Part shown: positions 11,198-63,523 of the stretch, piece by piece | Position numbering within the stretch: position 1 is the stretch's first letter | Layout: each line of letters starts with the position of its first letter | Origin: Pempheris klunzingeri | Lineage: Eukaryota; Chordata; Actinopteri; Acropomatiformes; Pempheridae | Length of the DNA: 64,000 nt | NCBI RefSeq assembly: GCF_042242105.1 | Contig: NC_092017.1 | Location: forward strand, 15,710,432 to 15,774,431 | Direction of reading: 5' to 3' | Made by a program: the position numbers and the translations under genes | The notes under the pieces: generated by a model | What the model was told of the DNA's origin: nothing | Databases searched by the model: none | The model's input: the letters and a program-made list of their open reading frames with translations, nothing else

Positions 11198-13711
11198 ATG
11201 GCCTCTAATGACCCCGACCTTCCCGACCTCTCTGGTGACCCCCAGCCTGGTGACCTCATTGAGATCTTCAGACCAGCCTATCAGCACTGGGCTCTCTACC
11301 TGGGAGATGGTTACATCATCAACCTAACTCCTGTTGGTCAGTAGGAACCTTCGAGAGACTGAGCTTTACGCTTAACAAAAAAAGACAAACACAGGGCGAT
11401 TTTGACACACGATAGTAATGATAATAATAATATGGCCCATCATGGTACTAAAGACCACATATGATCTTAAATATGATCATTTAAACACCAGCGGTCAGAT
11501 GTAGATGAATCTGAAGCATTTTGATGTCTATATTCCGGCTAAAGACGTGTTAATCTGCACCCCCAAACTCACAAAAACACCCCTTTAAACACGGACATGG
11601 AAAAGTAACCGCATATCAATTTACTCATTAGTTGTGACCTCCCTCTTTCCCTGGGTTTCCTATCTGTATCAAACAGGGGCAACATGCTAAAAATATTCTT
11701 TAGGAAAAAAAACGTATTCTAAGGAGGTATTTTTACAATACATTGTTGTAATGGTACTTTTACTTATGTTGAGGATCTAAATACTTCTTCCACCCCTGTG
11801 GTTTGATTAAATCCCCAGAAAAAATATTCTGTTACTTGAAATATTTGTGACTAAATATTTATCTATTGTTTTCAATTCTTATTTAATCAGGTAGTCTCAT
11901 TCTCTCTTTTGCAAGAGAGGCCGGAGACCAAGCAACTTTCACAAAAACGCAATCGGCAAAACAGAACAACGCAGTTGCACAATAAACAAGAATTAGAGGA
12001 ACATTTACATGAAACAGTAACAAGAATCATTGGAAAGATCAGATAATGAGGTTTTAAAGATTATGTTCTGTAGCTATTGGATTTAAGTACAAGAGGAGAT
12101 GCAGAAGAGCTCTATGAATAAGCAACAATCAAAGCTGAAGTTTAAAAACATCCTCAGATAAGACTTTTGCACTTAAAAACTCAACATCAGCCCAACAACT
12201 ATCTTCATATTCTGAATATAATGTGATTATTACATATCAGGGCTTGTGGCTGGTTGTGTACTCATGTAAGAATCATCATTATGATCAGACCTAAAATACT
12301 GAGGGCTTCAGGATCTCTTTTCTTGTGCATCTTCACATCTTCCATATTTTCCCAAAGCTGCAAGATTCCAGATCCAAGATCCTTAAAAAAAAATTCACTT
12401 TTGGCAAACACTTGTTGTGTACTCAGTGGAAGAAGATCTTGTCGCTCCTCTTCCTCTCCAGATGAGAGCCAGGCAGCCGCCATGTCCAGTGTGAAGTCCG
12501 TCTTCAGCAGGAAGGCAGTGGTGCGCATGCAGCTGCTGAAGGAGGTGGTGGGGAGCGACTCGTACCGTGTCAACAACAAGTATGACCACAACCACACACC
12601 CCTGCCCGTCTCTGAGATCATCCAGCGAGCGCAAGTCTTGATTGGCCAGGAGGTGTCTTATGACCTGCTGGGGAGCAACTGCGAGCACTTTGTTACCCTT
12701 CTGCGCTACGGGGAGGGGGTCTCCGAGCAGGTCTCTCACTGTTTGTTTTGTTTCAGTCTCATGTGTCATCAGGGCAAAACACTGACTTTTCACTCAACAT
12801 AGCTCAGAGAATAAAGAATCCCAAATGTCACAACAGTCATAGTTTTGGTTGTGGAGAAGGTTTTAGAACAGGACAGGACAGTCAGTGAGCCTCACCATGA
12901 AATAAATACAACAACATTTACCTCATAAAGGCCTGTGTGACTTTCTGGACTCCAGATTGTTTGTATGTGTACTTTAACACTGCTGACCTCGGCTGGTCTG
13001 CTCTCTAGCCTACAGGAAGCCATGGATCAAAATGTAAAGAGACCCAATTTTACTTATTATTATCTTTTATCATTTGGCAAAATTAGATAAACCATAACTG
13101 GTTGGATTGAGGCATAGGTTTGGAGTTGTTTAAGTTATGGCTACAGTCAGGGTTAGTATTAAAGGGATACTCTGCCCAAAATCTATCATTTGAATGCCAA
13201 ACTCTCCACGCCTTAGCCTCGGAAAGTGGCCCATGATGTATTTTCTTTCTTCAAAAGCAATAGCAGTTGTGGTAAGGTTAAATTAATTCAGATTATAATG
13301 GTTTACATTGGTACAATAGTTTATTGAACAGCTTGTAGGTAGAAAAAATGATCAAAACATCCCTATAAACCTCTCTAAAAAAAATCCATTCCATCCATTC
13401 TTATGTTGTTCTAATGCTGTAAAAGATGCTTGTGATTGTTTGTGTCTGCCTCCTCTCATAAGCAACAGACACATTTTGATATTTATGGCTGTTTTTGACT
13501 TGATGAGCTATACAATAATGTATTTACTCTTTAATGTATAGACTTGTGCCAAGCCGTAGATCACGGTAATCCTCAGTCCACCTCCTGTTCTCCTCCTTCG
13601 TCTCCACAGGCTACACGGGCCATTGGGGCCATCAGTTTGGTGACGGCAGCAGCCAGTGCCTTCTCTGTCCTGGGACTGATCAACACACGATCCAGAAACA
13701 GGCCTTTCTGA
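11198..13711 (+). CDS. plaat1: Phospholipase A and acyltransferase 1 (HRAS-like suppressor), 169 aa
   Basis: LRAT/NlpC-P60-like thiol enzyme that acts on phospholipids (phospholipase A1/A2 and O/N-acyltransferase reactions), membrane-anchored. Three coding exons: 11198-11336, 12462-12730, 13610-13711, total 510 nt including TGA. The catalytic His is in [12 protein letters not shown] (about residue 30) and the nucleophile Cys in [14 protein letters not shown] (about residue 120). A hydrophobic C-terminal segment ([15 protein letters not shown]) precedes a short basic tail and would be the membrane anchor. The length and the GDLIEIFRP and [14 protein letters not shown] blocks match vertebrate PLAAT1 rather than the shorter PLAAT2-5 type. 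The ATG sits directly after an acceptor (CAG-ATG). It is followed by two AATAAA signals and lies between divergent mfn1 and ftsj3. Confidence 0.94.
11728..11799 (+). repeat. 3' fragment of CAGTGGTG-ended fish element
   Basis: Ends in GATCTAAATACTTCTTCCACC preceded by GGTACTTTTACTTA, which matches from memory the right end of the same fish MITE family seen nearly whole at 45825-46288. It lies in a plaat1 intron. Confidence 0.6.
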
Positions 13712-18800: not shown

Positions 18801-21515
18801 ACCTGTCTGATGAAGAGGATGATGAAGTGGACAAAATGTCCTTGGCCTCTGACCTGGATGAAGAGGACTTAGAAGAGGTGGAGCACCGACAGACGGAGCT
18901 GGAGAAAAAAGCACCAAAGAAGAAGTAAGTGGCCATTGAGACCCTCATAAATGAATTGTTCTCTTATTGAGTTTTTGATTATTGATTACTCGTGTCTGCG
19001 TTTTCCAGAGTTAAGTTCACTGAAGAAGAAGAGGATGGTGATGAGGTGCAGGAAGGCGGTTTGCTGGTGGAACTAGAGGGAAAGGACGAGAAGAAGGAAC
19101 GGGAGACCAACCTGTGGTTCAGCAAGGTTAGTCCACACACTGGTGTTGCATAATGATTGGTCAGTCACCTGCCTCTTCGTCATCGCTGGTCTTCTTCATG
19201 GCTTACACCTGCACATGACTTAATTTCTGTGTGAGGTCTGAGCCTGCCATCCCTCTGCTCTGCAGGGCATCTTCTCCGAGATCGACCTGGAAGGAGACGC
19301 CGAGAGCGAGCTCCGACAGACTGAGTGGCTCCAGAGCAAACAGACAGGTGACAGTCTCCCCAGTTTTTCATTACATCTTCATCATTCAAAAGTCTTTTTT
19401 TCAAAAATGGATTTCCATGATTCCTTAAAAAAAAGACAAATCAAAAACAATCAGATAAAATAAAATAATGTAAACTACAACTTTTAAAAAGATGTTGTAA
19501 ATCTGTGGCTGACAAAACAATGATTTGGGGTCTTTTTGTAGGAAAAGGCAAAAAGAGGAAAGCTGAAAAAGAAGAGGAAGAGGAGGAGGAGGAGGAGGAG
19601 GAGGAGGAGGCTGCCCCACCATCACCAAAGGAGGCTGGACCTTCACAGGAAGCTGAAGAGGACAGTGACAGCGACTCAGACGACAGCAGCGATGATGAGA
19701 AGTAAAAAATAATTTTGACTGTTTATGCCGTTTCACAATATTAAATACTAAATCAAATTTGGCTCTTAATATCGATGACTAAACAAATGTATACATATAA
19801 GCAATCAGTCAGTATTGTGCTGCTCGTTCCAGGGAGATTACCAGGATGAAGCACGCCAAGGGGGCTGGTGCGATGTCAGGACTGGCCAATGAAGATGACT
19901 TCCAGGTTGTTCCTGTGGAAAGCACCAGTGAGTATGACAAACATTTATATTTCAGGTGTTTAGTTTGGGGAATCTCCAGCACGCACGGATCCTGACTTTT
20001 CTAATTGCTGGAGAAACAAACTTTCATCTGGGTTTATTTAACCAAATTGACTCCAAACCAGGTTACATAAACACAGCCAGTAGAAGTGCTTCAGCTTTGT
20101 TTTTGTGTAACTTAATGGATGTTTGTGGGTTCTCTGCACCTCAGGTAAGAAAGCCAGGATCCTGGATGCAGAAGGCCTGGCCCTGGGCTGTCAGATCGCC
20201 ACGTCTAAGAAGAAAGCCAGAGACCTGGTGGACAGCAGCTTCCACAGGTGTGTGTGTGTCTATTCAAATGCGTATCCACTTCCATTGACATCAGACTTGC
20301 ATTACTAAAATCTGTGATCAGGTGTCACATGCATTGACGCCACAATGTTTACATCAGACTTAAATTTGCACACAATATTTGAGTTTAAAACTGGTATTCA
20401 ATGTATTTTTGCTGGCATATTTAATCCTCAGGTGGGAGGCATGGTAGCCAAAATGTTTTGCATGATGTATTACACACATCATCAGTTTCAGAATCTGCTT
20501 TGTAAACACACATCGTTTCACAAAAATACTGATTGAATGTTCTAAGAAAAACAAGTTTGTATCAGTAGTTACACCGTAGGGATGAATAGCATGTTTTGCA
20601 CCTGTACGTCAAGCTGATTGTGCGCTCCTGTAGGTTTGCTAGCTCAGAGGAGCAGTGGGACGTACCAGAGTGGTTCCTGGACGATGAACGGAAACATCGG
20701 AAGAAGCCGGTGCCGGTCACCAAGGAGATGGTCGAAGAGTACAAACAAAAATGGAAGGAGATCGATGCCCGACCCATCAAAAGAGTTGCTGAGGCCAAAG
20801 CCAGGAAGAAGAGGAGGGTGAGACAATTAAAAAGATGATGAGACATAAAACTGGATCATGATTGAAATTGTCACAGCTGTTAGATGTTAAGACAAACGAA
20901 AACATGACAAACTGTTTAGTTTAAACTTGTAAATCAGGTCAGATGCCAAAATTAAAGACTGGTCAAAGATTTCAGTAGAACTGATTGTGTTAGTTGCTCT
21001 GTGACTTTTCCAGATGCTGAAGAAGATGGAGCAGGCTAAGAAAAAGGCAGAGGCGGTTGTCAACACAGTGGACATCTCTGAGAGGGAGAAGATGGCTCAG
21101 TTGAAGAGGTATGATGTCAAACCTGCTGGAGCCACAACTTCAACTCATGACTCCATGACACTAAATGCATTTTACCAATGCAGTTTTACCAATAATGGCA
21201 TTTCAATCATTTTGTTGTTTTCCCTATTATGTCAGTATATACAAGAAAGCGGGCCTGGGGAAAGAGAAGAGAGAAGTAACGTACGTTGTGACCAAAAAGG
21301 GAGCTGGCAAGAAGGTGAGACGGCCCCCCGGCATCAAAGGAGCCTTCAAAGTGGTGGACAGTCGCATGAAGAAAGACATGCGGGGAATGCAGAGAAAGGA
21401 ACAACATGCTAAAGGGGGCAAAGGAAAGGGTGGCAAAGGAAAAGCAGGACCAGCAAAGGGTGGCAAAGGAAAAGGAGGACCGCCAAAGGGTGGCAAAGCA
21501 CGCAAAGGAAGATAA
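14712..21515 (+). CDS. ftsj3: FtsJ-like rRNA 2'-O-methyltransferase 3 (Spb1 family), 864 aa
   Basis: Nucleolar SAM-dependent 2'-O-ribose methyltransferase for pre-rRNA processing (yeast Spb1). Exons: 14712-14778, 14913-15018, 15825-15871, 16039-16118, 16343-16442, 16613-16807, 16940-17055, 17271-17375, 17560-17660, 17777-17860, 17971-18117, 18385-18520, 18731-18924, 19009-19126, 19266-19347, 19542-19701, 19833-19927, 20145-20247, 20634-20817, 21014-21108, 21236-21515 (2595 nt). The FtsJ fold is residues 1-210: SAM motif DLCAAPGGW (50-58) and K31, D117 (NDGAPN), K157 (FVTKVF), E192 (SAEIF) forming the K-D-K-E tetrad. Acidic low-complexity and coiled segments follow, including a run of about 13 Glu, then the conserved Spb1 C-terminal region ([12 protein letters not shown] onward) and a Gly/Lys-repeat tail. 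The intron after 17055 is GC-AG. Human FTSJ3 is of similar length. Confidence 0.95.
15749..15800. repeat. (AT)n microsatellite
   Basis: About 26 AT units in ftsj3 intron 2, ending 24 bases before the next acceptor. The Ile-Tyr open frames over it are artefacts. Confidence 0.97.
18529..18552. repeat. Short (CA)n repeat
   Basis: Twelve CA units nine bases inside an ftsj3 intron, immediately after the donor of the exon ending at 18520. Confidence 0.9.
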
Positions 21516-23169: not shown

Positions 23170-26100
23170 ATGCTCCTCATCTTCCTGGTGTGCAGCCTGG
23201 CGGTGGCTGGCACGGGGCAGCAGCTGGACGACGACTGGATTGACCCCTACGATATGATCAACTACGAACCAAGCACCAAAACTATGCGGAAGCCCGCAGA
23301 GGTATGGTGGTGCTATGAGTGTACATTTGTTGCTATTGCTCTGGATAATCTGCAGATATGTTGATATTTCTCTTGTGACGGTAAATGTGTGTGTGTCCTG
23401 CAGCCAGTTAACTACCCCAACGTGCCAACCAAAAGAAGAGAGCATAATCAGGACCCCAGCCAGGCCGAGCAGACTCTCTGTGACAGAGAAGTAGTGGATC
23501 TAAAGAATCAGGTTGGTTTAATCACTGTCAGAGTCACAACAGGAGCTTCAGGAAATGTCTGAATGGGTTTATGCATTCATGCAGCTTTTCCTAGCAGAGT
23601 TTAGTCAAGAGATTGCAGATTGTGCGAAAGAGTTTTTAATATCTGTTTGTTTTGGCTAATGGGAGTCTGAAAAAGGAAATGGAGGGCAAGATCTGAAATC
23701 CTAGATGTCAGGGATGGGAGCTGTCGCACACAACTTCAACAACTTTTGTTCAAGATTGATAAAACATAAAATAAAAACCTGAATGTCACTGAGGTTCAGG
23801 TTACGGTACACAGTCGTCCAACATAAATACATACAATACATCATGCACGACACAGAACAGAAACATTTTTCTGTTTCACTGTTTTTGGCTGCAGACATTT
23901 TTCTGCTTAGATATTAGAGAAGCACGACAAAGCAAACTACATAAACTCAACTACAATGACATAAACACAACAAAACTGTTGGCCAGAACGTGTGCATGCC
24001 CCTATCCTCCTCAAACTGTAAAGGAGGAATGAGCACAAGGTAGTTTCTTCAAGTTCAAGTCCTCTTGAAAACCAGCACCTGCCCTGCTTATTGTCTTTAA
24101 GAGATGCACTGAACGGATCACTAATTAAAAAATTAATCTCCATGGAATCAGTCAAGCATGACAAACGCTGTGCTTTGCTTTCGTGCAGATTGAAGAATTT
24201 AAGAAGGAAATCACGCTCATGTCACAGCAGCCTACATGTAATCCAGTGTTCAAGCGGTTCCTTAGCAGACTCCTGAAGGAGATACAGAGAGTTGGTGTGG
24301 TATGTGGTCATTTCACATTTATTATGCTGTGTCATGTGGCTTTGAGTACATCTTTGCTAATCTGAAATGCATTTTACCAAACCAATCATCACATGGCCTA
24401 CTTTTGACAAAGCTACTGAATCTGTTTTTAAATGTAATATCGCTGACATTTCAACCTCCTCTTTTCTCCCCAGCCCAGCGACTCCACAGAAGTCTTTTAT
24501 GATGCCAAAATCAAACTGTCCAGACAGGCCATGATGGAGATTCAGTCTCTTCTGGAGGGTGAAGACAGCTGGAGAACAGGAGCTCTGGACAATGCCATCA
24601 ATCAGATACTGGTGGATCTCAGACCGCATAACTATGAGGCCTGGAAGTGGCGTTTTGAAGACAGCTTTGGCGTGGAGCTTGACACAGTATTAAAAGTAAG
24701 TCCTTTAATCTGAAACCTTTTGTTTATGAGTCTTTAAGACACTTCAATTATGTAAAGACTTCTGATTTTAGAGAGCTTTGACTCTGAATAATAAGTGTCC
24801 ATTTTAAGGTTGAGTCTTAAGTGAGACTGGAGTGTGTGCTGCAAACTTAAGGAGCCGTTTTATTTAGAGAATAAATGTCAAATCAAGCCAAGTCACAACT
24901 TATTTATGTAGCCCAAATGCACAAATCACAATTTGCTTCAGGGGGCTTTACAGTCTGTCCAGCGTACGACACCCTCTGTCCTTAAACCCTCTTTTCAGAT
25001 AAAGAAAAACTCCCTTCAAAAGCCACAGAGAGTCAGGAATCCTCTCCCAGGATGGACAGACATGCAATAGATGTCATGTGTACAAAACAGACCAATAAAA
25101 TCGCAGCATACACAAATTATGATGACAACATTTCTCGTAGATGTACTTATTAAAACATATGTGAAGAATGCACATCCCTAATGTCCTATGCACCCTGGAT
25201 ATTTTTGAAATCTGCCTGAATTTGAAAATACCGAAAACCACAAATGTAACAACATTGTTTTTTCCCTCAGTCATCACAGTATGTATATTCTCGTAAATAA
25301 CATAAAATATATATATATACGTTTGTATTTATACATAGATGTATGTGTGCGCAAATGCAATAAAGATGTATATGAATATAAGAATATAGCCTATCCCACT
25401 GTACGACATGCAAAACGTGTCAAAAAAATGATCCATTGATTCCATGTCTCCTCAGTGAGCCATGACAAGTTGTCCGAGCTGCAACAAAAAATCTGCTATA
25501 AAAAAAAAAAAAAGCATATTTTCTATGTGATTGTTGAGCTTTTAATTAAACAAAAACAACACTTACGATCGTACGGGCTGAAGTGGCCACTCACTTCTGT
25601 GTGAGATTTTAAAATACTTTTTGTGCATATTTTGTGTTACAAATGGTTTTTTCTTTTCGTGTAACCAGTCAAGTTGTAACCCGGTCTCTCTGTTTGTCTT
25701 CCAGATAGGGCTGTTTGTTCTGGTCATAGTGGCCATCATATGCACCCAGATGTGGTCGACAGTGTCCTGGTTTGTGCAGTTCAGCAGACTGCTTGCAGTC
25801 TGCTTCGTCGTCAGTATTGTCTGGAACTGGATCTATCTGTACAAGGTGAAGAGGAGCTATTTTGGTTACTATGCTGTTGTTTTGCTGTCATTCAGTGCTT
25901 TTTTTTTTTTTTTTTTTTTTAGACAGATAAGTTTGTAACACCATCGCTTTTTTTTTTTTTCAGATTGCCTTTGCTGAGCACCAAAGCAACATAGTAAAGA
26001 TGGATCGTGTCAATGAAAAATGCACTGGGATTAAGAAAATTAACTGGCGTGATAGTTTGACAGGTGAGTCCCTTTCAAGTATAAGCAAATACAGTAAACT

Positions 26101-28163
26101 TCATATTGTCGCCTCCTGTAAAAAAACACGTATCTGAAGAATGTCAACGTTTCAGCTGTAATCTTTACAGCTTTGTGGCAATGCATTTTGGATTTACAGG
26201 AGGAAAAAAGAGGGGAGCTGCAGATTTAGGTGATGATTGTTAGTCGGTTGTTGTGAAAATATTGATCATAGTTACTTTAATCTTTCTGTTTATTAAAAAA
26301 ATTCAAAATCAGCTAATTTGGGGAAACATGGTTTTCTCCACACTGGAAAGATGTGAAGAATATTTCTTGTCTCCTACTTTTACACCTTCATTTCACATGA
26401 AAGACAATGACGTCCCAATGTCTTACTTCCTAATTATCAGCGTCCTACCTTGGTACTATTGCTATTCGTAGCTGCATCTGAGGTGTTTGGTTATTTTCGT
26501 TCAGAGTGGTTCAGAAGCACCTGGACTCTTCAAGATGACCCCTGTAAGAAATACTATGAAGTCCTCATGGTCAACCCCATTCTGTTGGTACCTCCAACCA
26601 AGGTACGGAACTACGATGGCATGTCTGTGTTCTGAGTGCATGTACAGGCTAAATTATGCTGCATATGCGGAATAACTTAACTGTTGTCTTAAGATATCCC
26701 AACGTAAAAATGCTTACATGCTTGGTGTTTTATTTTCCAGTTGTTGGGCATTAAGGAAGTTCATAGAATGAAGCATTTCGCACACTATCACGTTTCACTT
26801 TCACACTATCACTTTAAAATTGGTGTTAGTTTTGAATGTCTGTATGGGTGTCATGTTATATTCTAAACATCCCTCTGTGTTTAGGCGATCTCAGTTACCA
26901 TCACAACCTTCATCACGGAGCCGCTGAAGCACATTGGTCAGGGGATCAGTGAATTTCTTCGAGCCCTCCTCAAAGATCTACCAGTTACCCTGCAGATCCC
27001 AGTACTCCTCACTATCGTGCTTTCCATTGTGGTAAGAGCCCTCAATGAATTCTTCAATTCACTGACACTTGTTAAAATAAATAGAATCAGACCACATTTC
27101 TACGTACTGGTGTATTCATTGTCTACAGATATGCATGTATGGAGGTGTTCAGGCAGCCTTCCAACATGGCATCTTGGCACCTTTCCGCCACCCTCGAAGG
27201 GGTCCACCTCCTCCAGAGCTGGAGCAACCACAGCGTCACCCCCAGGCGATCGAGGACCACGACCACTTAGCAGGAGGGGACGCATTACAACCTGCCCAGA
27301 GGCACCGAGCCAATGACGGCAGATTACACAGAAACCAGGTTCATCAGAGGCGGCCCAACAGACCCAGGGAAGAGCCAGTCAAGGTGGCGGTGGAGACACT
27401 ACGCACCGCCGAGCCTCCCTACAGTGAGGATGAGACCGACGCTGAGCAGCATGAGGCTGAGCAGAATCTCTCTGCTGAATCAGATTCAGAAAATCAGCAG
27501 GAGACACGGGAAAAGCCAACAGGAGCAAGGGCTGGAGGTGTTGCCGCTAAAACAGCCCAATCAAAAACTAAACCCACTGAAACAGACTCATCTCAGTCGA
27601 AGACTAAACCAAAAGGGAAAGAAAAACCCTCCAAAGATGATAAAGACAAACTCAGCAGAGATGGCGCAGCACCTAAATCTCAGCCAGCAGCACAGGGACC
27701 TTTAGACGCTGATGTTCAGGTGAGTGCTTTTAAAAATTCATGAAAACTAAATCAGATTCATCTTACTAATATACAATTAAGGACATAAAACAATACCTCT
27801 TAACTGTGATTAAACCTTTTAAAGTACCCTGTTTTTTAATGTTTAATGCTGCAGCGTTGCACATGCACTCATGGAATGATGAATATTCACACACTACATG
27901 AATTGGTAAAGAAGTATTTAATAACTAGATTATATTATACTTTATACTTTTTATATTATACTTTGGTTTCTGAATGTAATATTTGCTACTACAAGACATT
28001 TTTATTTGGATGTCTTTTTGTTTTATCATGATTTTTGATGTAAACCCCCTCACTGCAGGACCTGCAAGTCTCAGCAGAAGACAACAAGACCTTGGTCTCA
28101 CTGAATGCAGTCGAAACTCTCGGAGTTCCTGTTCAGAAGTCGCCTCCAACGTTTGCGGAGTAG
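23170..28163 (+). CDS. clcc1: Chloride channel CLIC-like protein 1, 584 aa
   Basis: ER-membrane protein reported as an anion channel, also linked to ER ion and lipid homeostasis. Exons: 23170-23301, 23404-23511, 24189-24299, 24474-24695, 25705-25845, 25964-26063, 26505-26602, 26885-27031, 27129-27719, 28059-28163; 1755 nt, in frame to TAG. Visible: a signal peptide ([16 protein letters not shown]); a luminal region starting [13 protein letters not shown] with a predicted helical stretch; two hydrophobic segments close together ([17 protein letters not shown] and [18 protein letters not shown], about residues 192-236); the conserved loop ending WRDSLTEWFRSTW; a third membrane segment ([20 protein letters not shown], about 335-360); and a long, polar, probably disordered C-terminal tail rich in Pro, Gln, Lys and Ser. 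The order and the wording are those of vertebrate CLCC1; the tail makes it slightly longer than the human protein. Confidence 0.94.
24882..25084 (+). repeat. Teleost interspersed repeat
   Basis: Contains the GGGGCTTTACAGTCTGTCCAG, AAAAACTCCCTTC and GGATGGACAGACATGCAATAG blocks of a fish repeat I recall as very common in percomorph genomes. It lies inside a clcc1 intron; the class (SINE or LINE tail) is not settled. Confidence 0.7.
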
Positions 28164-39300: not shown

Positions 39301-39933
39301 CTGTTTTTTTTTTTTTTCTTGATTCACTGCACTTGTGTTAACTGTGTTTACAACTTTCCTAAAGTCCAGTCTTATGTCCCCTCTTCCACGTCTCTAGTTT
39401 GAGGGCCTGAGTCGTGTAGCGGAGTGCCTTTTCTCCCTGCTGAACGGCGACGACATGTTCACCACCTTCGCCCAGCTGAAGGATAAAAACATTTTGGTGT
39501 GGCTCTTCAGCCGAGCCTACCTCTACTCCTTCATCTCCCTGTTCATCTACATGGTGCTGTCGCTCTTCATCGCCCTCATCACCGACTCCTATGAGACCAT
39601 CAAGGTTCTTTTGCTTTGCTTTGGTTTTAGTGAGGAGGGTTTCAAGTACTCTGAGGACTTCTTTTTAATTGTTTGTTCAATTGTTGGTCTTCATCATTCT
39701 AGTGTGAAAAAAGGTACCGCTGTGAAATAATGATTTGTTGTCTTTTACCTTTTGCATTTCTTTGTGTTTTTTACCAACAGAACTACCAAAAGGATGGATT
39801 CCCGTTGACGGACTTGCAAAAGTTCCTCAGAGAGCAGAAGGACTTTTCTGTTGCAGAGGAGTGCAGTCAGACAAACAACAGACACCTCAAATACCCTTCG
39901 TTCTGCTGCTGCCGGCGGTATGATCATGTTTGA
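30334..39933 (+). CDS. mcoln2: Mucolipin-2 (TRPML2) cation channel, 550 aa
   Basis: Endolysosomal TRPML-family cation channel gated by PI(3,5)P2 (family knowledge). Exons: 30334-30377, 31048-31201, 31863-32036, 32727-32883, 33046-33124, 33223-33319, 33832-33931, 34321-34433, 35428-35577, 36363-36464, 36642-36764, 39398-39604, 39781-39933; 1653 nt. The cytosolic N-terminus [19 protein letters not shown] leads into TM1. The luminal domain, with paired cysteines, spans about residues 80-285. TM2-TM6 follow, with the pore helix and selectivity filter LNGDDMF (about 446-452) and TM6 ending [15 protein letters not shown]. The tail holds a FCCCRR cysteine cluster. [16 protein letters not shown] and [16 protein letters not shown] favour MCOLN2 over MCOLN3. 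The intron after 32036 is GC-AG. The last exon ends at a TGA after YDHV; a GTATGA at the RR codons could instead be a donor to a further exon, so the last few residues are uncertain. Confidence 0.93.
33369..33404. repeat. (CCAT)n/(CATA)n microsatellite
   Basis: Compound tetranucleotide repeat of about nine units in an mcoln2 intron. Confidence 0.9.
36996..37105 (+). repeat. L2/SINE-type 3' tail
   Basis: Reads GACTGGCGACCAGTCCAGGGT, then CCCGCCTCTCGCCCAATG, then GATTGGCTTCAGCCCCCC and AAGATAAGCGGTATAGATAATGGA. From memory this is the standard fish CR1/L2-derived SINE tail. Confidence 0.8.
38889..39085. repeat. Degraded hAT-like MITE
   Basis: Contains CAACTATTTTGATAATTGATC and CAAGCAAAAATGTCAAACATT, wording shared with a common fish non-autonomous element. 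The ends are not intact. Confidence 0.55.
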
Positions 39934-46288: not shown

Positions 46289-46552
46289 CAAGTCACTAAA
46301 TCTCTCTTTACCTTTTGGCAATCTGTCAGAAAAATTGAGGAAAATATAAATTTTTTACAGTGCTAATTGTCCAAGCAGTAAACCCTCAGATGAGAAGCAA
46401 GAACAAAGGAATGTTTGGTAATTTTTGCTTGACAGAGGAAGTTTTCTGTTGATCGACTGACCAATTAATTGCCTAACCGCTCTTCTTTTTAATTGATGAA
46501 TGGTTCCACCTCTTATGTTGTCTTGTTCTTATTTTACAGACTCACCTCTAAA

Positions 46553-49500
46553 ATGGCTCAGCAGAACCAAAACTGTCATTATAATGAGTCCATGGTGTTC
46601 TTCTACAGAAACAGCGGCGCTGATGATAAATGGGACAATACACAGCTTATCCTGGTTCAGGTGGTCGGCTCTATCTTCTGCTGTTTCATCCTGGTCTCCA
46701 ACGCCATGGTCATAGCTGCTGTCATCACCAATAAGAGATTTCACTACCCTTTCTACTACCTTCTTGCCAACCTCGCCGCCTCGGACTTCCTGGCAGGCAT
46801 AGCTTACGTGTACCTCATGTTTAACACAGGCGAGGAGTCACGGAAACTTACAGTTAAAGGATACTTTATCCGTCAAGGTCTTCTGGACGTCAGCCTCTCA
46901 GCCTCGCTGGCGAACCTGTTGGTAATAGCTCTGGAGCGCTACATCTCCGTCATGAACTGGAAAGTCCACAGCAACCTGACGAAGAGGAGGGTGACCCTGC
47001 TGATCGTGCTGGTGTGGGCCATCTCCATTTTCATGGGTGCTGTGCCGAGTCTGGGCTGGAACTGCATCTGCAACCTGAACGACTGCTCCCAGCTGGCTCC
47101 CATCTTCAGCAAGAGCTACCTGATCTTCTGGTCCGTGTCTAACCTGGTGGTGTTCCTGGTGATGGTGGTCATCTACCTGAGGATCTACACCTACGTCAAG
47201 AAGAAGACTTCAATGCTCACGCCGCACACCAGCGGCTCCATCAACCGCAAGAGGACACCCATCAAGCTGATCAAGACGGTCATGGTTGTGCTTGGTAGGT
47301 GCAAAATCATAAAAATGTTATGATGTTGATGATAGAAGACAGAACAGCAAGTCAGATCGTTTTCTGCACCAGTCAGGTGTGAATAGTTGCGGTGTTAAAG
47401 AAGTTGCAACATCCAGGCAATTCACTGCATTGTAATCTATATTCCTTCTATTAGCATAACACAACAAACATTTGGCTTTTAGTGACTACGATAATTGCTT
47501 ATCAGTGATTTGAGGGAACCTTAAATGAAAGCGGAAGAGTTGGCAAAATGTTTCTTTTATTTCTCTTTAGGTTATTTGTCACTATTCAGGGTTTGTTTTC
47601 TGATTAGTGGTTTAAACGCTCATTAACCCATTATAGCTTATTCTGTCATTCAACTATTTGCTTAATAGATCAATATTAAGTCTATAAAATGTGAAAAATA
47701 TATTTAAAGATGCCCGTCACAGATTTCAAAACCTCAAAGGGACGTCTTTAAATTTCTTTTTCTGTCCAACTAACAGTCAGAAATCCAAAGGACATTAAGT
47801 TTACAGGATGTAAAACAGGAAAAAGAAGCAAATCCTCTCTTTTGAGAAGCTGGAGAAGGAGAGGCAATTCATTTTTTGTCCATGGACTCATTATTGCAGC
47901 ACTACTCCACTCTGTTCCCCGAGTAAGAAAGCACAAAAAGTTTCCTTCTCCCCTCATGCATTTTCATCCTAGATGAGACAGTTTGATATCCTGGTTTGGC
48001 TCTTAGTTCAGGTGTTGCAACAGGATACATTGCAATAGAGGCACAGCCCTGAAATTGTTCCCCTCCCAGCGCCAAACAATCGGGCTGCACTAACATATTC
48101 TATTTGAGCACCAAAATAGGGGGTAATTATATATATATATATTCTCATGCAACCATAACGCACAATGCTCATTGTAGGTTCCCATACCATCAAAAAAGTG
48201 ATGCATTTCTCATGAGTTCGCCTCGGTGTCGAATGTGCTCAGTTTTGTTTTCATACATTCTTCACACAACCATGCAGATAAAAACATGCATGAGATAGTT
48301 GTAGTGACTTTTGGGCCGTCGCCCTGCAGGATAATGGTCTGTCATTGTTCTTTGTCTCTTTGGGCACTCGGCTTGCCAGATGTCTCGATACAGTACGTTG
48401 CGTAGGAGCTGCCTCTGTACACACTTTATTCCAGCCTGCCGTGTAATTATCTCTCTCTGCAAGGACACAGCCTCCTCAGCCTGTGTGGCATACCATCCAC
48501 ACCACACCACACTGGCCTTCAATGAGCGTCCCCTAATCCCCTCCCATCCAAAAAAAAACTATGCTTGAAGACTCTGTCAATTGCTTTCACATGCTTTACA
48601 GAGTTCCCCTTGAACTTGTGGAAGTGATGCAGTGTCATTGCTAAATTCTCTTTGTTAAATAGCAACAATATTTGAGAGAAAAGGGAAGGAAATCTGAGGA
48701 CACACACTCAGGTCCAGGACCATCATGGGATACATTAAGCAGCATGAAAAACTGTTGACTCTTGTTCTAAGAAAAGCAGTCTCCTCAGGAGGAAAAGGCA
48801 ACTGGACAAACCAGTTTGGAGACGCATAACCCACATATTCTTTGTTATTACTAGAGTAAAATGAATGAGTGCAAAAGAATTAGACAGGGACGCAGTCAGT
48901 AACTGCTGCTGCTGATGTGTGTATATATACAGTGTGTTTAGATTTGGACTTTAATCAATTATTTAGTCAGTCAGATGTCAAACAAATAAGAATAAAATGA
49001 ACTTCACTCTTCATTGCGCTAGTTTGCTAAAACATCTTCTTGTATTTTGATAGCCATCAGCCATTTGTTATTTTTTCAATTAAATAATAAGTAATAAATA
49101 ATCAATTAATAAGAAATAATCTTGCCAAAGCATCAAAAAATACAAATAGAAACACACATACTGAGCAGGAAGATTTTGTAGCAATCAAACTACAGCACGC
49201 AGAGTTAGACCAGACCATCGTCAAGTGAATACCAAATGAGAAAAGGAAGATATGTTTGAAATGTATGTTCCCAAAATCCTCTGTTTCTTTCTTTGTCAAA
49301 GATTAAAAGGGAAGAAAGTCCACTTTTAACTTCAATGCATCAAAAACTGGAAGACCATTAAATGGGGTCTCATTCAATTTCAATGCAGTTCACTTTATTT
49401 CAAACATGTGGGCCATCAAAGACTATAGAAAAAAGAGGAGGAAGAATGGGTATAGAAATAGGAAAACAGTAAAAATGTGGCAAACGTTTTGACTTTAAGG

Positions 49501-50469
49501 CATGAGAGCAGTGGAAAACATACAAACTGAGATCAACGCTTCTACCAGACCTTCTTTGTTTGTGTGCACATGCATGTGTGCACATGTATGCAAAGAGAGA
49601 GAGAGCTGCAAAGAACAGAGCTTGTTTTTGTTCTGCAGATGTATTGAAGCCGTAGAGATGCTGGTACTGTCAACATTACCGTAGGTAGACAAGTTGCTAC
49701 TTGTGGCTTCCTTTCTGTTCCAGAAATCTTTTAGTAGCTCTGTTTTGTGCCCAAACATGTTTGAAGTAGATGGCTAATTGGATGCCTCAGTAGCACTGCT
49801 ACCTACCATACACATAACACAACACAGTAATGACATTGTGTTTGTAACCTGTGTCTGTCTGTTGTAAGGTTATTGGAATTGTATTACTCTGCTAAAATGC
49901 TCTTATTGTCCTACTTTCTGAGTTTTAGTTTCATTAATGGAAATACATGAAACCACCCAATACATTCTAATTTAGTTCTGATTAGTTTATAATGTAAATT
50001 TGCCTTTTTGATACCCATTTAAACAATCAAGAACCTTTAGGAAACAGGACTAAATCCATAATTTTCACAAAAAATGCTACATGTTACAAACATGTTACAA
50101 AAACTTAAGTGGGTGTGATTTGCTGTACTTTTTCCTGAAGGGGCCTTTGTGATTTGCTGGACTCCTGGACTCCTGGTTTTGCTGCTGGATGGCCTCAGCT
50201 GTGAGAGATGTAACGTCATGAAGCTGAAACGCTGGCTGCTGCTCCTGGCTGTGCTCAACTCCATCATGAACCCCTGCATCTACTCCTACAAGGACGAAGA
50301 AATGTGGACAACCATCAAGAACCTCATGCACTGCATCGGGAACGGCACGCGGCGGCAGCGGTCGACGAAGGCTAACGCCAGGCCGCTCAGCTCTGCTCAG
50401 GATACAGGCAACAGTCAGCCTCCGTCAGAGGACACAAAAAATGATGATCAGGGCATACTGAAGACCTGA
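46553..50469 (+). CDS. lpar3: Lysophosphatidic acid receptor 3, 356 aa
   Basis: Class A GPCR of the EDG/LPA group; it senses extracellular lysophosphatidic acid at the plasma membrane and signals through Gi/Gq (family knowledge). Two coding exons: 46553-47294 and 50141-50469 (1071 nt). Visible: the CHYNESMVFFY N-terminus with an N-glycosylation sequon; seven hydrophobic segments; the LPA-contact motif RQGLLD at TM3; ERY in place of DRY; the WNCIC extracellular-loop-2 motif; the TM6 CWTP motif; and NPCIYSY (NPxxY) in TM7. The single coding intron splits the Gly codon before AFVICWTP in TM6, the position conserved in LPAR1-3. SPHTSGS-like and VHSNLTKRRVTLL wording favours LPAR3. The ATG at 46553 is used because the in-frame ATGs further upstream lie before the acceptor at 46538-46539. 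Length is close to human LPAR3 (353). Confidence 0.95.
47295..50140 (+). other. lpar3 coding intron (2.8 kb)
   Basis: No exon-like sequence recognised. It contains a diverged hAT-like MITE (47620-47860), a short AT repeat near 48130, and otherwise AT-rich unique sequence. Confidence 0.65.
47620..47860. repeat. Diverged hAT-like MITE
   Basis: Holds GTCTATAAAATGTGAAAAATA, GGACGTCTTTAAATTTCTTTT, CTGTCCAACTAACAGTCAGAA and GCAAATCCTCTCTTTTGAGAA in the order of a common fish element. The ends are not clear. Confidence 0.65.
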
Positions 50470-55148: not shown

Positions 55149-58100
55149 ATGGCTCTTTGGACAGTGGCATCCGTTTACCTGTGCTTCCTGCTGGTGAGTT
55201 CTCACATAGTTGAGGATCTACAAAATAAAACATGACGACAGATTTAATTTTAAAGAGCAAATGTGGACTAATGACCACATATGTTAAAGGTTAACCTGCT
55301 AATGAACTGGACAATGATGCAAAATGAGGGCAGGGGTGATGCATTTTCAAGTGACTGTGTTAGACAGAGGAAAGGATATAAATGTTTGTGTAAACTGGGT
55401 GTATAATATTAACATTTTTATTTATCGCTGAGGAAGCCCCCTTGCTTTTGTTGTCTTGTCAGAAACACTTGCTGCTGCGGGCATGTGGTCATGGGCTTGT
55501 GGTGTTTCTGTGTTTCAGTTTTTTGCTGGGTTACTTGCCAGCCTCTTGTGGGGCTGATTTCCTACATTATGAAACATTCTCTAATCAGTCTCGAATAAAA
55601 GATAATAATGTGATTCTTACCTACATTTATTCACCAGAATGGCTCTGCTTGTAATATTGAAGTTGCTACTGTTTAACTTTACTAAGTAGTCTGGCTCAAA
55701 ACCAACAAGGCTTTAGAGAGCTGACTTGTGTATTTAAATGATTGAATGATTGGCTGATAAGGCACACGCATTAGGCTCTAATTTGTTTACACACAGTAAA
55801 AATGCCTTAACATAACAAAAATCTTCTCATCTGTCTGCAGGGAGTACATTGCTGGCATGATCTGGACAACACAGAGTACGACTGTTGGCCGATCAATAAT
55901 CCAAATGATTACAACATGATCAGCTGTGGTGGTAAGTTTTTATACGTGTATTTGACTGTGTTGGTCTCCGTTTGGTGCGAGTGTTTCATTACAGTTCAAT
56001 TAGTAGATCTTTAGTTGTTTGAGTGACTTATGTGTGAGTATTTACTGTAAAGTCAGATGGTTTTCTTTTTCCTTTTTTCTGGCTAAAAAGGAAGGAGACA
56101 GTGAAGTTGGTGGGGCTCAACAGAATAATACATATATGTGTCCAAATACAACGCACAGTATCCTTTACTGCGTGGATATGTATACTGTTTGAATGTGTAT
56201 GTTCAGGTGACGTGCGTGTGTGTTGTCACAGGTCTGGAAATGGCCTGGGTACAGCGTCCTCCAGAGAAAGTAACCAATGGGGAAGAGTTCAATGTCTCGT
56301 ACACGGTGACGGCCTCAGATTCCTTCTACGAGTACTCGGTCAGGAACAAGATTTTCCAGTTCAGGTGAGTGTGTTACATAAACACTTGGAATCCTGAACG
56401 TCTGCTGTACCCACTCACACACGCAACGAGCACAAACACGTGCACACACACACAAATGCAACCACATATTCATCTAATCAGTGAATTGACTCGAGAGGTT
56501 CAGTTACAAAAAGTTAGTTAAGTCAATTATACAATTATTGAAATACAATATATATGAAGTGCAAACACACACACACTGGAGATATTTAGTACTAAAAAAA
56601 GAAAGATGCCAATTGCAATTGATCAGATTATATAGATGATCAATACCTATTCCCCCTCTCTGTAACTTAACATGTCTTATAGGTTATTTTAGGCTAACAC
56701 CTGTTTTCATTAAAGGTTAAGGAAAGCTGATCCTCATGCTTTTGTTTGAGCTTCCATTGTAAATAACACCTTGGGGCGTCGTGTTAGTCCATTTGTTTGT
56801 CTTCCCTTCTAGCAATGCGTCAGAAGCAAAGCGATTCTGTCATGAACACGAGTGCCCGGCAAACTGGAATAACGCCAACGAAATGAACTGCTGCGTGTAT
56901 CACGCCAACATCCACTCCTGTCCTCTGGGTCTCATGGTGGGTATCCAGCAGTATTCTGCACAACACTGGTTTCATCTCACCAAACACAGTCCACGTTTAA
57001 ATAAAACTACAGCAAGCAAATATGACCTTTAGATTATGCCAAAGCTGTTGTGTTATCTTTGATATTCAATGGGGAAGTATTCATTAGTAGTCTTTTGTAT
57101 TGCATGATATGTATAGATATCTATCATGTAGGATCATCTGATTACTTTGTATGCTCATTTAAGCATGTCTGGTTCTCTTAAACCTTGCAGGCTGAATTTC
57201 CTCATACTTTTCCCTTAAGCAACTCAAGAAAATCCACAGGGTACCACAGTCACTTATCACTGTATACTTTGTACCTGCTTATTCCAACTCTTCATTGCAC
57301 CTACTTTGTATGATTCCTACTTACTTACTTTGATTCTTACTTTCTTACTGATGTTAAAATACAAGACATTATAGAAGTTTGGTGCCTTTTTTACTCTCTC
57401 TTTGCACAAATTTTGCCTCAAATCTGGTATCTTTGGAGGTTTTGTGATTTTCAAAACTGCTTGTCTACTAGTAATTATGTGTCGTAAGAGGTTGACTTTC
57501 TACAGTGTTTGTAAAAGCATAATGACTTTAAGAATTATAAAGTAACTTTCCACGTCTCTCTAAGACTGTTGTATATCTCTCATCACAGCCAAGGTCATCT
57601 TTGAGTAAAAGGTGACCCAGAGGGTCAGTGCCATTGAGCTTTTCCCCTTTTCTGCTCTCAACACAGCTGTTGTGTTTGATGTTTGATGCTTCTTCTAGAT
57701 CTGCTCTCAAGGCACCATGACTTTGAAATCTTCATGAAGCTCCAACTTTTGGATGTATTTCTGTTGTTGAATAAATTGAGATATTTAGATTTCCAAAACA
57801 TCACCATCTTCCCCTTAAGGAGGAGAATGCTTGAATGAACTGTCTAAAGGGCACATTGTGGATTAAACCCTCTCCAAACTGTTGTGCTATCTCCTTGCAG
57901 AAACAAGGTGACATCTGTGGCCCGTGGATTCCTGACGATGGTAAAATAGTGACTCACACTGTATCCAAAGCAGGCACGATGACACAGAAATACTGGACTT
58001 CAAAGGTGAGCCGACCCAAACAAAACTCTTCAAACGAATGGGTAATTTCTAACATGTGTTGAGGTTTGGAGAATATTTGTAGTATTTCTTACAGTCCCAT

Positions 58101-61100
58101 AGCAGGTTAGTATCTGCAAACACAAAGACACACATCTCTAGTTAAAGTCATCTAGCACTGAAACATTCACCAACTGTAGTGTTTCAGTATGACTGCAGTA
58201 CGGTCCAGCATCTTTGTTTGAGTAAAAGAGTTTCTTGAATGGCAGATGTCCAACTTTAACTTGGTTGTTTGTCTGAGAGGAATTCATCTTGCACCCATGC
58301 AGGCAAAACATAAAAGACATGTGTTTGATCAAAGTGACACATCCTTTGTGATTCTGTTATGCTGTTATGTCACGATACGGACAGCAGGCTGCAATTACTT
58401 GCCTGTTAGTAGAAAATTACAAGAGTACAGAAAGTCATGCTTTTGGTTGTGGCATATCAGATGGCTGTAAATGTACCGAAAAAGGGTACACAAGTAAAAA
58501 ACAATGAATTCATGTATGATACAGTTTTGCTGTTGTGGGTAAAATCTGACAGAATACTCTCTCATATGATCTTTAAATGTTTTTAAGTCTTCGGACAGTG
58601 AAATAAAGTGCGGTAGTTATATGAGGGATTGTTTTCTATGTATATTGATTTAAACTGTAATAACAGTCGATACTCTAAATAATTAGCAGAATAATTTTTC
58701 ATGCATGCATTTCATTATATTCAGTGAGGAAAGGTGTACCATAATTTTGTCTTTTAATCTTCTGATAAAACAACAAATGCTGACAATATTGTTGACTGAG
58801 GCTTCCTAATATACAACCTAACTTCCACAGCTCATTTTAATTTCTGTCATGGTGTTTTCTCACACAGGTGGTGCTGATCCATGTGGGAGTCACCTCAGTC
58901 ATCGCTCATATCAAAATAGGACAGATGCACGCGGCACTGGAGTCCAAAGTACTTGTTGTCAGCGCTCAAGGTCAGTCTGCTCATCAAGTTTCTGTTTGTT
59001 GATATGCTGAATCCTACAGGATGCACTGCTGCTCCACCATGATCTGCTAATACTATATTTGTACAAAATCATCTTTGAGGTCTGAGCAATACGACACAAT
59101 TTAAATTAGTTGTTTAGGTTTAGAGAGTGCACTCTTGTTTACATCCTGGACCTGCGCAGAAACATTAGGTCAGCTTGTGCATGATCTTGCAGTAGCATGC
59201 CATCATTTTAAAAGAACTGCTGCACTATCAGCTGAATAATAGACTTTATTTTAGTTTAGCATTCTATTAGTTGATGTATCTGTAATCGTTTGTGAAACAT
59301 CATGAGCCTCACTGATTTCTGTGTGAATTTAATTCAGTCATTTGTGGAGAGTAATGAAGCACATTTACTGAAGTACTCTATTGAAGTACAATTTTAGTAC
59401 TTTAATACTTTATTCTTCTATTCTATTCCACTACCTCTGTTTGATACGTTTAGTAACTAATTGCTTTGCAGATTCAGATTAATACAAAATGTAATCAACA
59501 CAAAAATGATGATGTAATTTTGGAGGTGAAGTTAAGATTAGTAAGAAGTTGTTGATTCCTGTGGTAAGATTCACAAGTTCAGTTGACTGAGACTGAAAAT
59601 GTAAAATGTGTGATTGTGTTTCAGTGTGTGGGGATGATGTCTGCGAGCTGGAGGAGACCTGTCTGAACTGTCCTGCAGACTGTGGCATCTGCCCCATGTC
59701 CATCGCTATCAAGGTGGCCATCGGGCTTCCAGTCGCTCTGTTCAGCAGCGGCTTCATCCTAACCATGGTGGTCAGTCTGTGCACACACACACACACACAC
59801 ATACACTCACAGACAAACGCTAGAGAAGTTTTATGCACTCATGTTTATCTCACTTTCTGCACATCAGTGGCTCCAGTACCAGAAACAGAGGATGTTTTGG
59901 GATGAAAGCTGGATCATCAACTACAAGAGCATAATATTTGGTAAAATGTCTCATGCTGAAGTTGTTAAAATATAGTGTTTACAGATACAGTATATTTCTA
60001 CAGAAAACTTAATTTACTTGAAGGCTCTATAGTTTCACTTTCTTTTAAGACTCAGTGTACTTCAGGAATGGATCACTTTCATTTAACAACCTTAAACAGA
60101 CAAGAATGTGGCTATTAAAAACAATTATTGATATACTGTATCTGTTATGTTATCTGTCATACACAGTGTGTTGCTATTATGTGAACTGCTTTCTTAAAGG
60201 AAGGTTATTTACCCTCTCTACCATCAAATAAAAGCATTTTTGTTCATTAATGCAGCACAATTGTGGATTTTACTACTTTCAGATCTCATCTGTTACGTCT
60301 CTGCAGGTAGAGTGTACTGCATGGGCCTTGGCAGCACTGCCAGCCAGCAGCGCGTCAGGAGTAACTCCACCATCAGTCGAACTACTGACATGACCGTGTG
60401 TACCAGAGTCAACACCTCCTTCAAACAAGGATTCATTCAGCCAGGCATCTAGTGAGAACAATTACTATTAGTGTATCTAAATGCCCATGGATCATCATTT
60501 TAATGTAGAGTAGATGTTTTAAATCTGTTCTTGACAAAATGATAACTGTTGTGACTTGTTCCTCTACATTTCACAAATATATGATGTTTTTGCTGAGAAA
60601 TTTCTTCGATATTGATGTGAATAAGTTGCCTTGACAATCGTAACTGTCTTGCAGTGATGGAAGGACGGTGGCAGTGAAACACATCCAGAACAAACATTTC
60701 ACCCTCTCTAAAACCATCAGGAAGGAGGTGAAAGAAGTTAGGTGAGGAAAGTCGTGCAGATAAAGCCTTTGTTTTACTGACATAATAAAGTCTTGTCTCC
60801 CAAATAAAAGAGCACCCCTTGCAAGCTGATGCCATTTTTCATACTGTCCAGGCAACTGGACCACCCCAATCTATGCAAGTTCATTGGTGGCTCCATCGAG
60901 GTCCCCTACGTCAGCATCATCACAGAGTACTGCCCCAAAGGAAGTCTGTCTGATGTCCTGCTGAATGATGACATCCCCATCAACTGGGGCTTCAGGTGAG
61001 AAAAATTCACATACAGTTTCATTTTGCAAGCTACGAGACATATATTGTTATGTTTTTGTGTTGTAGGTGCGACATTACCCAGTGTTTATTATATGCCTTG

Positions 61101-63523
61101 ACTTTTACTTTTGATTGACAACAAATGTGTGGAATGGATAAACAGAAACATGAGTGTTTCTTACCCCATGCAGACTGTCCTTCGCCACTGACATCACCCG
61201 CGGGATGTCTTACCTCCACCAGCACAGGATATTTCATGGGAGACTTCACTCCAGAAACTGTGTCATTGATGACCGCTGGGTGTGCAAAATCTCAGGTATT
61301 AATCACAGTCATCCTCAGACACAACTTGAGTCTGCCGCCCCCAACTCTGTTTTTGTTATATCCTTTCCCACATCCTGCACCTGCAGCACTGTTGTCATTG
61401 AGGCAAACTGATAAACAACATCCTGAGTCACTGTGCTCTTTTTTCCTGTGTTTGGCCTCAGATTATGGACTCACTGCCTACAGAAAGGAAGACTTTGAGG
61501 TCTGCAGTAACGGCTTCAATTGTGGAGATGTTAAGCGTATATATTGTGCCCCAGAGGTCCTGCTGGGAAGCAGCTCCAATATGACCCCAGCAGCAGATGT
61601 CTACAGGTGTGCTGGAGCATCACAGTCTTATCACTTAATTTTAGTTAAAGCAGTTTATTTTGGGTTGCAATGTTTGGACCACAAGAAAATTTGGTGCAGG
61701 TAAATTAAAGATATGGAAATTAAGTAAGAGTAGACCAGAAAGCACCTTTACATGTATGTAAAATGTTACAGTTGAGTCTTAGTAGCTGCACTGGAAAATA
61801 CATAGAAAATAATATCCTTCCTCTACTTTTCCCTCCTCTCCTCAGCTACTCCATGATTCTAGTTGAGATTGCAACTCGATCTGACCTCATTTTGGTGAGT
61901 GGGACAGCCCTCGCAGTAGATTACAACCTTCAGCCTCCTTTTGATCTTTGCTTTGTAACCAGCGGTCCTCTCCAACAGGACCAGGCCGAGGGAGTGAGAA
62001 TGGATATCATGTGGCGCCCCCCTCTGCCTGAACTCAGAGCAGGGAAGGCAGATACTGACTGTCCCAGTCAAGGAGATTACTGTGAGGTCTGAAAATGCTG
62101 CTGTACTATTTAGGGGAAAATGTGATATTGGTGCTAATTTCACTCTTATGTGTGTATTAATAACTACAAAAACTTGTAAATGTTAGACTGGTATTATATG
62201 TCAATGGCATATTACTGTATGAACTGTATGAAACGAGGTGTCGCTCTCCTCTCTGGATCAGCTCATTAAGAAGTGCTGGTCTCACAACGCCACCATGAGG
62301 CCAACATTTGAGCAGGTGAAGAAGATGCTTGACAAAATGAACCCTCACAAAGTCAGCCCTGTGGACATGATGATGAACCTGGTAATAACCTGCTGAAATG
62401 TGGTAAAATGACATGGGAATAATTGGTGTAAAGATACATTGTTTGCATTAAATCTACCATGAGTGAAACAAGGATACGTCAAATTTAATGTGACATTATT
62501 CTACATTTCACAAACGATTGCATTTCTAAGACAAATGCTAAGGGAAAATTTGCAATGCTATTTGTTGTATTTGGATTGTTGTGAGTTACAAGCGCATGAT
62601 TTTTTTTAAATGCAGATGGAGAAGTACAGCAAACATCTGGAGGCCATAGTTGCAGAGAGGACGCAGGATCTTCTTCAAGAGAAACAGAAGACAGACCGGC
62701 TGTTATACAGTAAGTCAGGATAAGAGTGTGGAGTGATGAGAAAGAGTTGCATGGCTGTAATGACTGATCACATGCAGAATCATGCCATTGAAGTACAGCT
62801 CTCAGGAATTTCTTGGTGACATAGCAGAGATAACACAGGGGGGATGAAAAGTGAATTAGAAAATGTATACATATACATTCATTATCTACAATATGTGGAT
62901 GCCATAGTGCTCAAAATAGGAAGTTGTTACTGTTTAGTTAATGCCAGTCAGTCATTTGTGAGTCACCTACACTTGGTTGTTAATCCTGAAGTATTAATGG
63001 ACACAGTGTCCTCTAGTGGTGCAGAAACAGTACATACATCACTACAAACAGCTGCAGCAGGGAAAGACACTTGCTTTTAGTCATGAAATTCCTGTGCAGG
63101 TATGCTGCCAAAACCAGTGGCTGATGACCTTCGTCAAGGTCGAACAACAGAGGCACAGAGCTTCTCCAATGCCACCGTCTACTTCAGGTTTGTGTTGTTT
63201 AAAGCACGTTCATGGACATTGGTTCAGTTGTAGATTCTCCAGAGAGCAACTTAAATGTGTTTCAATGATGTTTTGTTATGTTTTCCCTCATGTTACATGC
63301 AATTTTCTTATTTTTTTGAAAAAGAAAAGCCATATACATGTAGAACTAGAGATGGCTAACAGTGCGTTACTCCCCTGTGACAGTGATATTGTCGGCTTTA
63401 CTCAGCTGTCTGGTGCCAGCACTCCCCACCAGGTCGTGAACTTCCTCAACCAGCTCTACACCACCTTCGATGACATTATTGACAATTACGACGTCTACAA
63501 AGTGGAGACAATAGGCGATGCTT
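55149..63523 (+). CDS. Receptor-type guanylyl cyclase with short Cys-rich ectodomain (5' part, about 687 aa)
   Basis: Single-pass receptor predicted to make cGMP. Exons: 55149-55193, 55841-55931, 56232-56364, 56813-56936, 57901-58005, 58868-58970, 59625-59770, 59868-59940, 60307-60451, 60655-60741, 60852-60995, 61174-61295, 61462-61606, 61846-61894, 61979-62086, 62262-62381, 62616-62709, 63100-63187, 63384-63523; all junctions keep frame. Signal peptide (1-16); ectodomain (about 17-225) with 15 Cys, two N-glycosylation sequons and a [12 protein letters not shown] motif beside the membrane; TM about 227-249; kinase-homology domain with VAVK but HGRLHSRNC in place of HRD, plus DYGL and CAPEVL; coiled-coil linker to [12 protein letters not shown]; and the start of the cyclase domain ([16 protein letters not shown]). 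The rest is off the right edge. The intracellular part resembles NPR1/NPR2; the ectodomain has no NPR-type ligand-binding domain. Orphan; no symbol assigned. Confidence 0.88.
59351..59503 (+). repeat. Truncated copy of CAGTGGTG-ended fish element
   Basis: Contains CACATTTACTGAAGTACTC, GAAGTACAATTTTAGTACTTT and GTTTAGTAACTAATTGCTTTG then GCAGATTCAGATTAATAC, the left part of the family seen at 45825-46288. It lies in a guanylyl cyclase intron, 120 bases before an exon. Confidence 0.6.
59782..59801. repeat. Short (CA)n repeat
   Basis: Ten CA units in the very short 97-base intron that follows the transmembrane exon of the guanylyl cyclase. Confidence 0.9.

Follow-up and report, generated by a model that had tools for sequence, protein, structure and literature searches.

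A window of 64,000 nucleotides from the genome of the fish Pempheris klunzingeri (NCBI RefSeq assembly GCF_042242105.1, contig NC_092017.1, positions 15,710,432 to 15,774,431 of the forward strand) contains on its + strand a gene predicted to code for a receptor guanylyl cyclase with a short, cysteine-rich ectodomain. As rebuilt from the window, the gene comprises 19 exons (55149-63523) that begin at an ATG in exon 1, are joined exclusively by GT-AG splice sites and keep one open frame of 687 residues before exiting the window within the cyclase domain. Apart from 2 residues at one acceptor and 151 C-terminal residues that lie beyond the window, this model is the same as the database protein P0001 of P. 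klunzingeri (836 amino acids [aa]), which is named "atrial natriuretic peptide receptor 2-like." Exon 15 has neighboring acceptors at 61979, used in the window model, and 61985, used in P0001, and the choice between them gives a pseudokinase with or without Asp-Gln. The signal peptide and the transmembrane helix were assigned by inspection, hydropathy and conservation. The features of the gene are as follows.

55149..55193, + strand, exon 1: initiator ATG and the greater part of the signal peptide (residues 1-15); identical in P0001
55841..55931, + strand, exon 2: predicted end of the signal peptide (55852), predicted mature N terminus W20-H21 (55853-55858), Cys 30 and 44
56232..56364, + strand, exon 3: residues 46-89, with beta-sandwich strands in the model
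56813..56936, + strand, exon 4: Cys 99, 104, 116, 117 and 126; His 120 (56901-56903) and His 124 (56913-56915); motif HANIHSCP
57901..58005, + strand, exon 5: Cys 137; motif CGPWIPDDG; His 150 (57955-57957)
58868..58970, + strand, exon 6: final sandwich strands in the model; His 180 (58907-58909)
59625..59770, + strand, exon 7: juxtamembrane six-cysteine module C202-C223 (59627-59692) and transmembrane helix at about 225-249 (59697-59770)
59868..62381, + strand, exons 8-16: juxtamembrane stretch and kinase-homology domain (a pseudokinase, with HGR instead of HRD)
62616..63523, + strand, exons 17-19: coiled-coil linker, followed by the beginning of the guanylyl cyclase domain; the gene runs past the window

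An earlier reading of this window from its letters alone (the sequence-only reading) had proposed that the seven exons at 55149-59770 are spliced in frame to the kinase and cyclase exons. At the level of sequence this splice chain is confirmed by the GT-AG sites, the open frame, the match to P0001 and conservation, and the transmembrane helix that it proposed is likewise borne out, with the strongest hydrophobic windows of the model beginning at residues 222-233. The join between ectodomain and cyclase is beyond chance, since in the homologues listed in our searches this ectodomain is likewise coupled to these kinase and cyclase Pfam domains; the identical architecture in database proteins from many species also rules out a prediction artefact.

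Extracellular and intracellular domains

The ectodomain of about 204 residues consists of a predicted sandwich part, with a length of about 180 residues and eight conserved cysteines, followed by the six-cysteine juxtamembrane module. Conservation was counted in an alignment of 223 homologues, from which P0217 (>1,300 aa; see below) was excluded. Two stretches, HSCP and CGPWIPDDG, show little or no variation, as do four histidines: H120 (222 of 223 rows), H124 and H180 (223 of 223 each) and H150 (221 of 221). Signal peptidase cleavage is governed by the -3/-1 rule. In 190 of 197 rows W20 is preceded by C, G, S or A, and 177 of the 197 have V, A or T at the third position ahead of it; read by eye, these positions fit cleavage that leaves a mature start of Trp-His. 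W20 is present in all 210 rows that have a residue there, and H21 is present in 209 of 211. The 15 cysteines of the sequence-only reading are indeed found within residues 17-225, but C19, which is not conserved, sits at the -1 position of the predicted cleavage site, so that the mature ectodomain would begin at W20 and have 14 cysteines. Gaps aside, these 14 are kept throughout the alignment, the only exceptions being a single row at each of positions 44, 116 and 117.

Searches with the ectodomain of the window protein matched no Pfam family at E values of up to 10. In particular, PF01094 (ANF-receptor) was unmatched in it and in 20 members of the class at E values of up to 10, and in 29 members at E values of up to 1. 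No AA10 lytic polysaccharide monooxygenase (LPMO) family was among the Pfam matches of the window ectodomain or of the 20- and 29-member sets, and profiles of these two sets retrieved 0 PDB sequences at E values of up to 10. We could assign no named domain on the basis of the scattered, chance-level matches that did appear, the best of which were to Lectin_like (E = 0.062; 2 of 29 members) and MACPF_1 (E = 0.1; 1 of 20 members). For the six-cysteine module, the best match among PDB sequences was a ferredoxin, again at chance level (E = 0.48). An NCBIfam scan of three members yielded kinase and cyclase matches alone, far under the curated cut-offs.

The ectodomain is predicted to adopt a compact beta-sandwich fold on the basis of an AlphaFold2 model from 29 divergent sequences (predicted local distance difference test [pLDDT] score of 85.6; predicted template modeling score of 0.77). 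These were 29 of 30 selected pieces, P0214 having been dropped for an odd end, and the model replaced a weaker one from 20 close sequences (pLDDT 73.5), which also gave generic sandwich matches. Among the matches listed for the second model (50 from each of two aligners), the structural matches are generic beta-sandwiches, and no periplasmic-binding-like fold is among the matches listed for either model. The structural matches to the second model cover its residues 4-184, so that the fold of the six-cysteine module was barely probed. The 50 Foldseek matches listed include 2 PmoD, 4 superoxide reductase and 11 LPMO-type structures, 7 of the last so named and the other 4 presumably CBM33/AA10 proteins. 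All of these metal-protein matches are weak, with template modeling (TM) scores to the query of 0.28-0.39 (0.30-0.35 for the LPMO type). The second aligner placed A2M domains and SoxY on top, with no LPMO among its 50 matches listed. The similarity to the sandwiches of A2M, complement C3/C4 and SoxY is near the level noted for models without true relatives and is accompanied by no significant sequence match. In the model, H120, N122 and H124 alternate on one predicted strand (model residues 101, 103 and 105; strand 99-108), and this alternation suggests that they could face one side.

The intracellular half matches the Pfam domains PK_Tyr_Ser-Thr, Pkinase, HNOBA and Guanylate_cyc. Its best match among solved structures is NPR1, from residue 314 (E = 2.2e-141), with the NPR1 chain of 1,029 residues aligned over its residues 519-1025 only, followed by GC-C from residue 321 (E = 1.1e-102). 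We compared the cyclase catalytic residues (two Asp, Glu, Cys, Asn and Arg) named in the available part of PMC5461267 and found D640, D684, E680, N759 and R763 in 221 of 223 rows, the remainder being gaps and one Asn at 680, and C752 in all 223. At the position of the kinase catalytic Asp, the 223 rows instead have Arg (204), Lys (6), Gln (4), a gap (4) or another residue (5). The kept cyclase residues and the replaced kinase Asp together indicate that, like NPR1, these proteins combine a guanylyl cyclase with a pseudokinase. With the architecture of a receptor guanylyl cyclase and intact catalytic residues, the protein should, as predicted from sequence, sit at the cell surface and produce cyclic GMP (cGMP) inside the cell.

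Like NPR1 and NPR2 (GC-A and GC-B), the protein is of the single-pass type and combines a pseudokinase, a coiled coil and a guanylyl cyclase. Unlike them, the class has no ANF-receptor Pfam match, yields a beta-sandwich model and is separate from NPR1 in the tree described below; further, its ectodomain has about 204 residues in the window protein versus roughly 440 in the NPRs. GC-C (GUCY2C) shares the same intracellular domain order, but its match is weaker than that of NPR1 and is confined to the kinase-cyclase part. The Pfam and PDB searches and the beta-sandwich model thus support the central proposal of the sequence-only reading, a receptor guanylyl cyclase with a short, cysteine-rich ectodomain of a non-NPR type.

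Distribution, paralogues and neighboring genes

Three protein searches were scored on the ectodomain alone. That from the window protein gave 394 matches among 781 candidates, and the best 120 of the 394 are all from bony or cartilaginous fish; that from a shark protein gave 408 among 968, the best 120 of which add rays, a chimaera, coelacanth, frogs, a caecilian, crocodilians and birds. A search of proteins of at least 858 aa gave 97 matches among 277 candidates, all of which were inspected, and adds lampreys, a turtle, lizards, platypus, amphioxus, a scallop and a nemertean. The matches listed carry kinase and cyclase Pfam domains. With three amphioxus proteins (48-52% identity), one from scallop (41%) and one from a nemertean (38%), the class, as judged from these sequences, is no fish novelty. 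The platypus protein P0171 is the only mammalian one among the matches listed, and therians, arthropods, nematodes, echinoderms and cnidarians are absent from them, which is no proof of absence. The sequence-only reading had suggested a possible loss in mammals; since platypus keeps the sister paralogue (P0171) and no therian is among the matches listed, a loss in therians appears likely.

A quick tree was computed from 52 of 224 proteins, chosen for breadth, together with the kinase-cyclase parts of NPR1 and GC-C. In it, the 52 family rows separate from NPR1 and GC-C with 99% support in the Shimodaira-Hasegawa-like approximate likelihood ratio test (SH-aLRT). The window gene falls inside paralogue class A, which unites 21 jawed-vertebrate rows (SH-aLRT 99) from cartilaginous fish, ray-finned fish, coelacanth, frogs and a caecilian, and which two lamprey rows join at 95; no amniote is in class A among the 52 hand-chosen rows. 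Class B (24 rows; SH-aLRT 96) includes cartilaginous and ray-finned fish, frogs, squamates, turtle, crocodile, birds and platypus. Outside both classes lie amphioxus and, next, a pair formed by scallop and nemertean (86). As the tree program cautions, both members of this pair have long branches, and so do NPR1 and GC-C. The medaka "membrane guanylyl cyclase" P0172 has the same ectodomain and architecture as the window protein but belongs to class B, with 64.4% ectodomain identity to it. Its plain name suggests that the sequence had been cloned earlier; literature searches aimed at P0172 found no publication on a cloned medaka membrane guanylyl cyclase.

The window protein shares 72.1% identity with shark class A over the ectodomain, 70.1% over the kinase-homology domain and 80.4% over the cyclase; the corresponding values for scallop are 40.1%, 54.0% and 63.7%. 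Among vertebrates, the pseudokinase thus evolves at least as fast as the ectodomain, whereas over longer distances the ectodomain is the faster of the two.

The protein excluded from the alignment, P0217 from Acipenser ruthenus (2,725 aa; named Vitellogenin), joins the receptor with lipoprotein and 7tm_1 G-protein-coupled receptor (GPCR) Pfam domains and is most likely a gene-prediction fusion. In the window too, a GPCR lies upstream of the cyclase on the same strand: its two open reading frames are at 46493-47323 and 50119-50469 (+ strand), and a scan of the first matched the Rhodopsin family (PF00001; E = 2e-26). We take the first to resemble a lysophosphatidic acid receptor and the second to resemble the C-terminal end of such a receptor. 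The other neighbors are also on the + strand: an exon at 39398-39730 with a weak Ion_trans match (1.6e-4, under the cut-off), presumably resembling mucolipin TRPML1; exons of an MCLC chloride-channel-like gene at 25582-27316 (PF05934; 1.1e-13 and 2.7e-11); exons at 21005-21515 with Spb1_C matches (4e-07 and 2e-14), presumably from an FTSJ3-like rRNA methyltransferase, in which a 30-base repeat occupies 21425-21498 of the Lys/Gly-rich coding sequence; and an LRAT-domain exon at 12227-12802 (PF04970; 9.2e-23).

Predicted function and significance

Sequence comparison establishes the architecture, conservation, ancient origin and catalytic residues of these proteins, and we propose that they very probably constitute a bilaterian class of orphan receptor cyclases, annotated as NPR-like, with an ectodomain of its own through which an extracellular cue would raise cGMP. 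In this single-pass layout, the beta-sandwich would be followed by the six-cysteine module, the transmembrane helix, the NPR-like pseudokinase, the coiled-coil linker and the cyclase. By analogy with NPR-type cyclases, the receptor would act as a homodimer, and a cue acting on the sandwich might rearrange the transmembrane and pseudokinase parts and relieve the restraint exerted by the pseudokinase, upon which cGMP would rise. Within vertebrates, conservation of the ectodomain equals that of the kinase-homology domain, and for this reason we favor a ligand that hardly changes (an ion, a small molecule or a highly conserved protein) rather than a peptide that evolves fast. Several observations weigh against this proposal. 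NPR1 and GC-C, both long-branched, are the sole other receptor cyclases in the tree, which limits the placement of the class; ectodomain identity falls below kinase-homology identity in amphioxus (52.7 versus 58.5%), nemertean (38.7 versus 47.2%) and scallop, so that the conservation argument is valid within vertebrates only; and the conserved histidines and cysteines may simply be structural.

The database names, atrial natriuretic peptide (ANP) receptor 1- or 2-like, imply an NPR1/NPR2-type natriuretic-peptide receptor with a shortened or mis-predicted ectodomain, consistent with NPR1 being the closest solved structure to the intracellular half. However, that match is confined to the intracellular part, PF01094 is unmatched and the structural matches listed are beta-sandwiches, and a prediction error is ruled out, as this ectodomain with its cysteines recurs across the 223 proteins aligned, which range from nemertean to platypus. 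We accordingly regard this explanation as very improbable and rejected a truncated NPR, the ectodomain having no match to NPR in the Pfam and PDB searches. More credible, though still the lesser possibility, is that the ectodomain binds a conserved partner protein, or itself at cell contacts, or serves folding or dimerization, with the cyclase being regulated from inside. High conservation across the whole ectodomain fits a protein interface, and the regulation of retinal cyclases from inside by GCAPs, as described in the available part of PMC6170504, provides a precedent; the near-invariant HSCP and CGPWIPDDG would instead fit a specific site, although they do not distinguish a partner from a ligand.

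The four near-invariant histidines form a candidate metal or small-ligand site that is worth testing. They also raise the prospect that the ectodomain is a metal or redox sensor in which H120, H124, H150 and H180, perhaps with the mature Trp-His, would make up a Cu or Zn site that sets the cyclase. Along with their near-invariance and that of H21, the alternation of H120, N122 and H124 on one predicted strand and the presence of PmoD, superoxide reductase and LPMO-type proteins among the weak Foldseek matches would be in keeping with such a role. Nevertheless, the low TM scores of those matches, the lack of an LPMO among the 50 matches listed by the second aligner and the Pro found in place of H21 in one amphioxus row speak against it, and we consider it doubtful. 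AA10 LPMOs have a copper site with an N-terminal His; the predicted mature N terminus of the window protein is Trp-His. Somewhat more doubtful still is the broader notion of a bilaterian-old class, its beta-sandwich ectodomain not described before, that would sense Cu/Zn or redox state via a near-invariant histidine site, possibly together with the mature N terminus, and couple it directly to cGMP from lamprey to platypus.

Receptor cyclases are already known as a kind, and the proteins of the orphan class proposed here are themselves in databases, mostly under NPR-like names. In a literature search that covered mostly titles and the openings of abstracts, with few subscription journals, we recognized no paper describing this ectodomain class, nor did we recognize it in the available parts of PMC1435932, PMC6170504, PMC10061024, PMC3863949, PMC7674705, PMC5461267 and PMC6787079. 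According to reviews, mammals have seven genes for membrane guanylyl cyclases (PMC5461267, available part); the present analysis points to two further vertebrate paralogues with a distinct, strongly conserved ectodomain, which databases mostly name as ANP receptors. If they signal as proposed, they would represent a cGMP input shared by many vertebrates and by two or more phyla of lophotrochozoans, and the ligand of this input could be searched for in fish, frog or chicken; to treat the genes as those of ANP receptors when studying fish or bird physiology would then be misleading.

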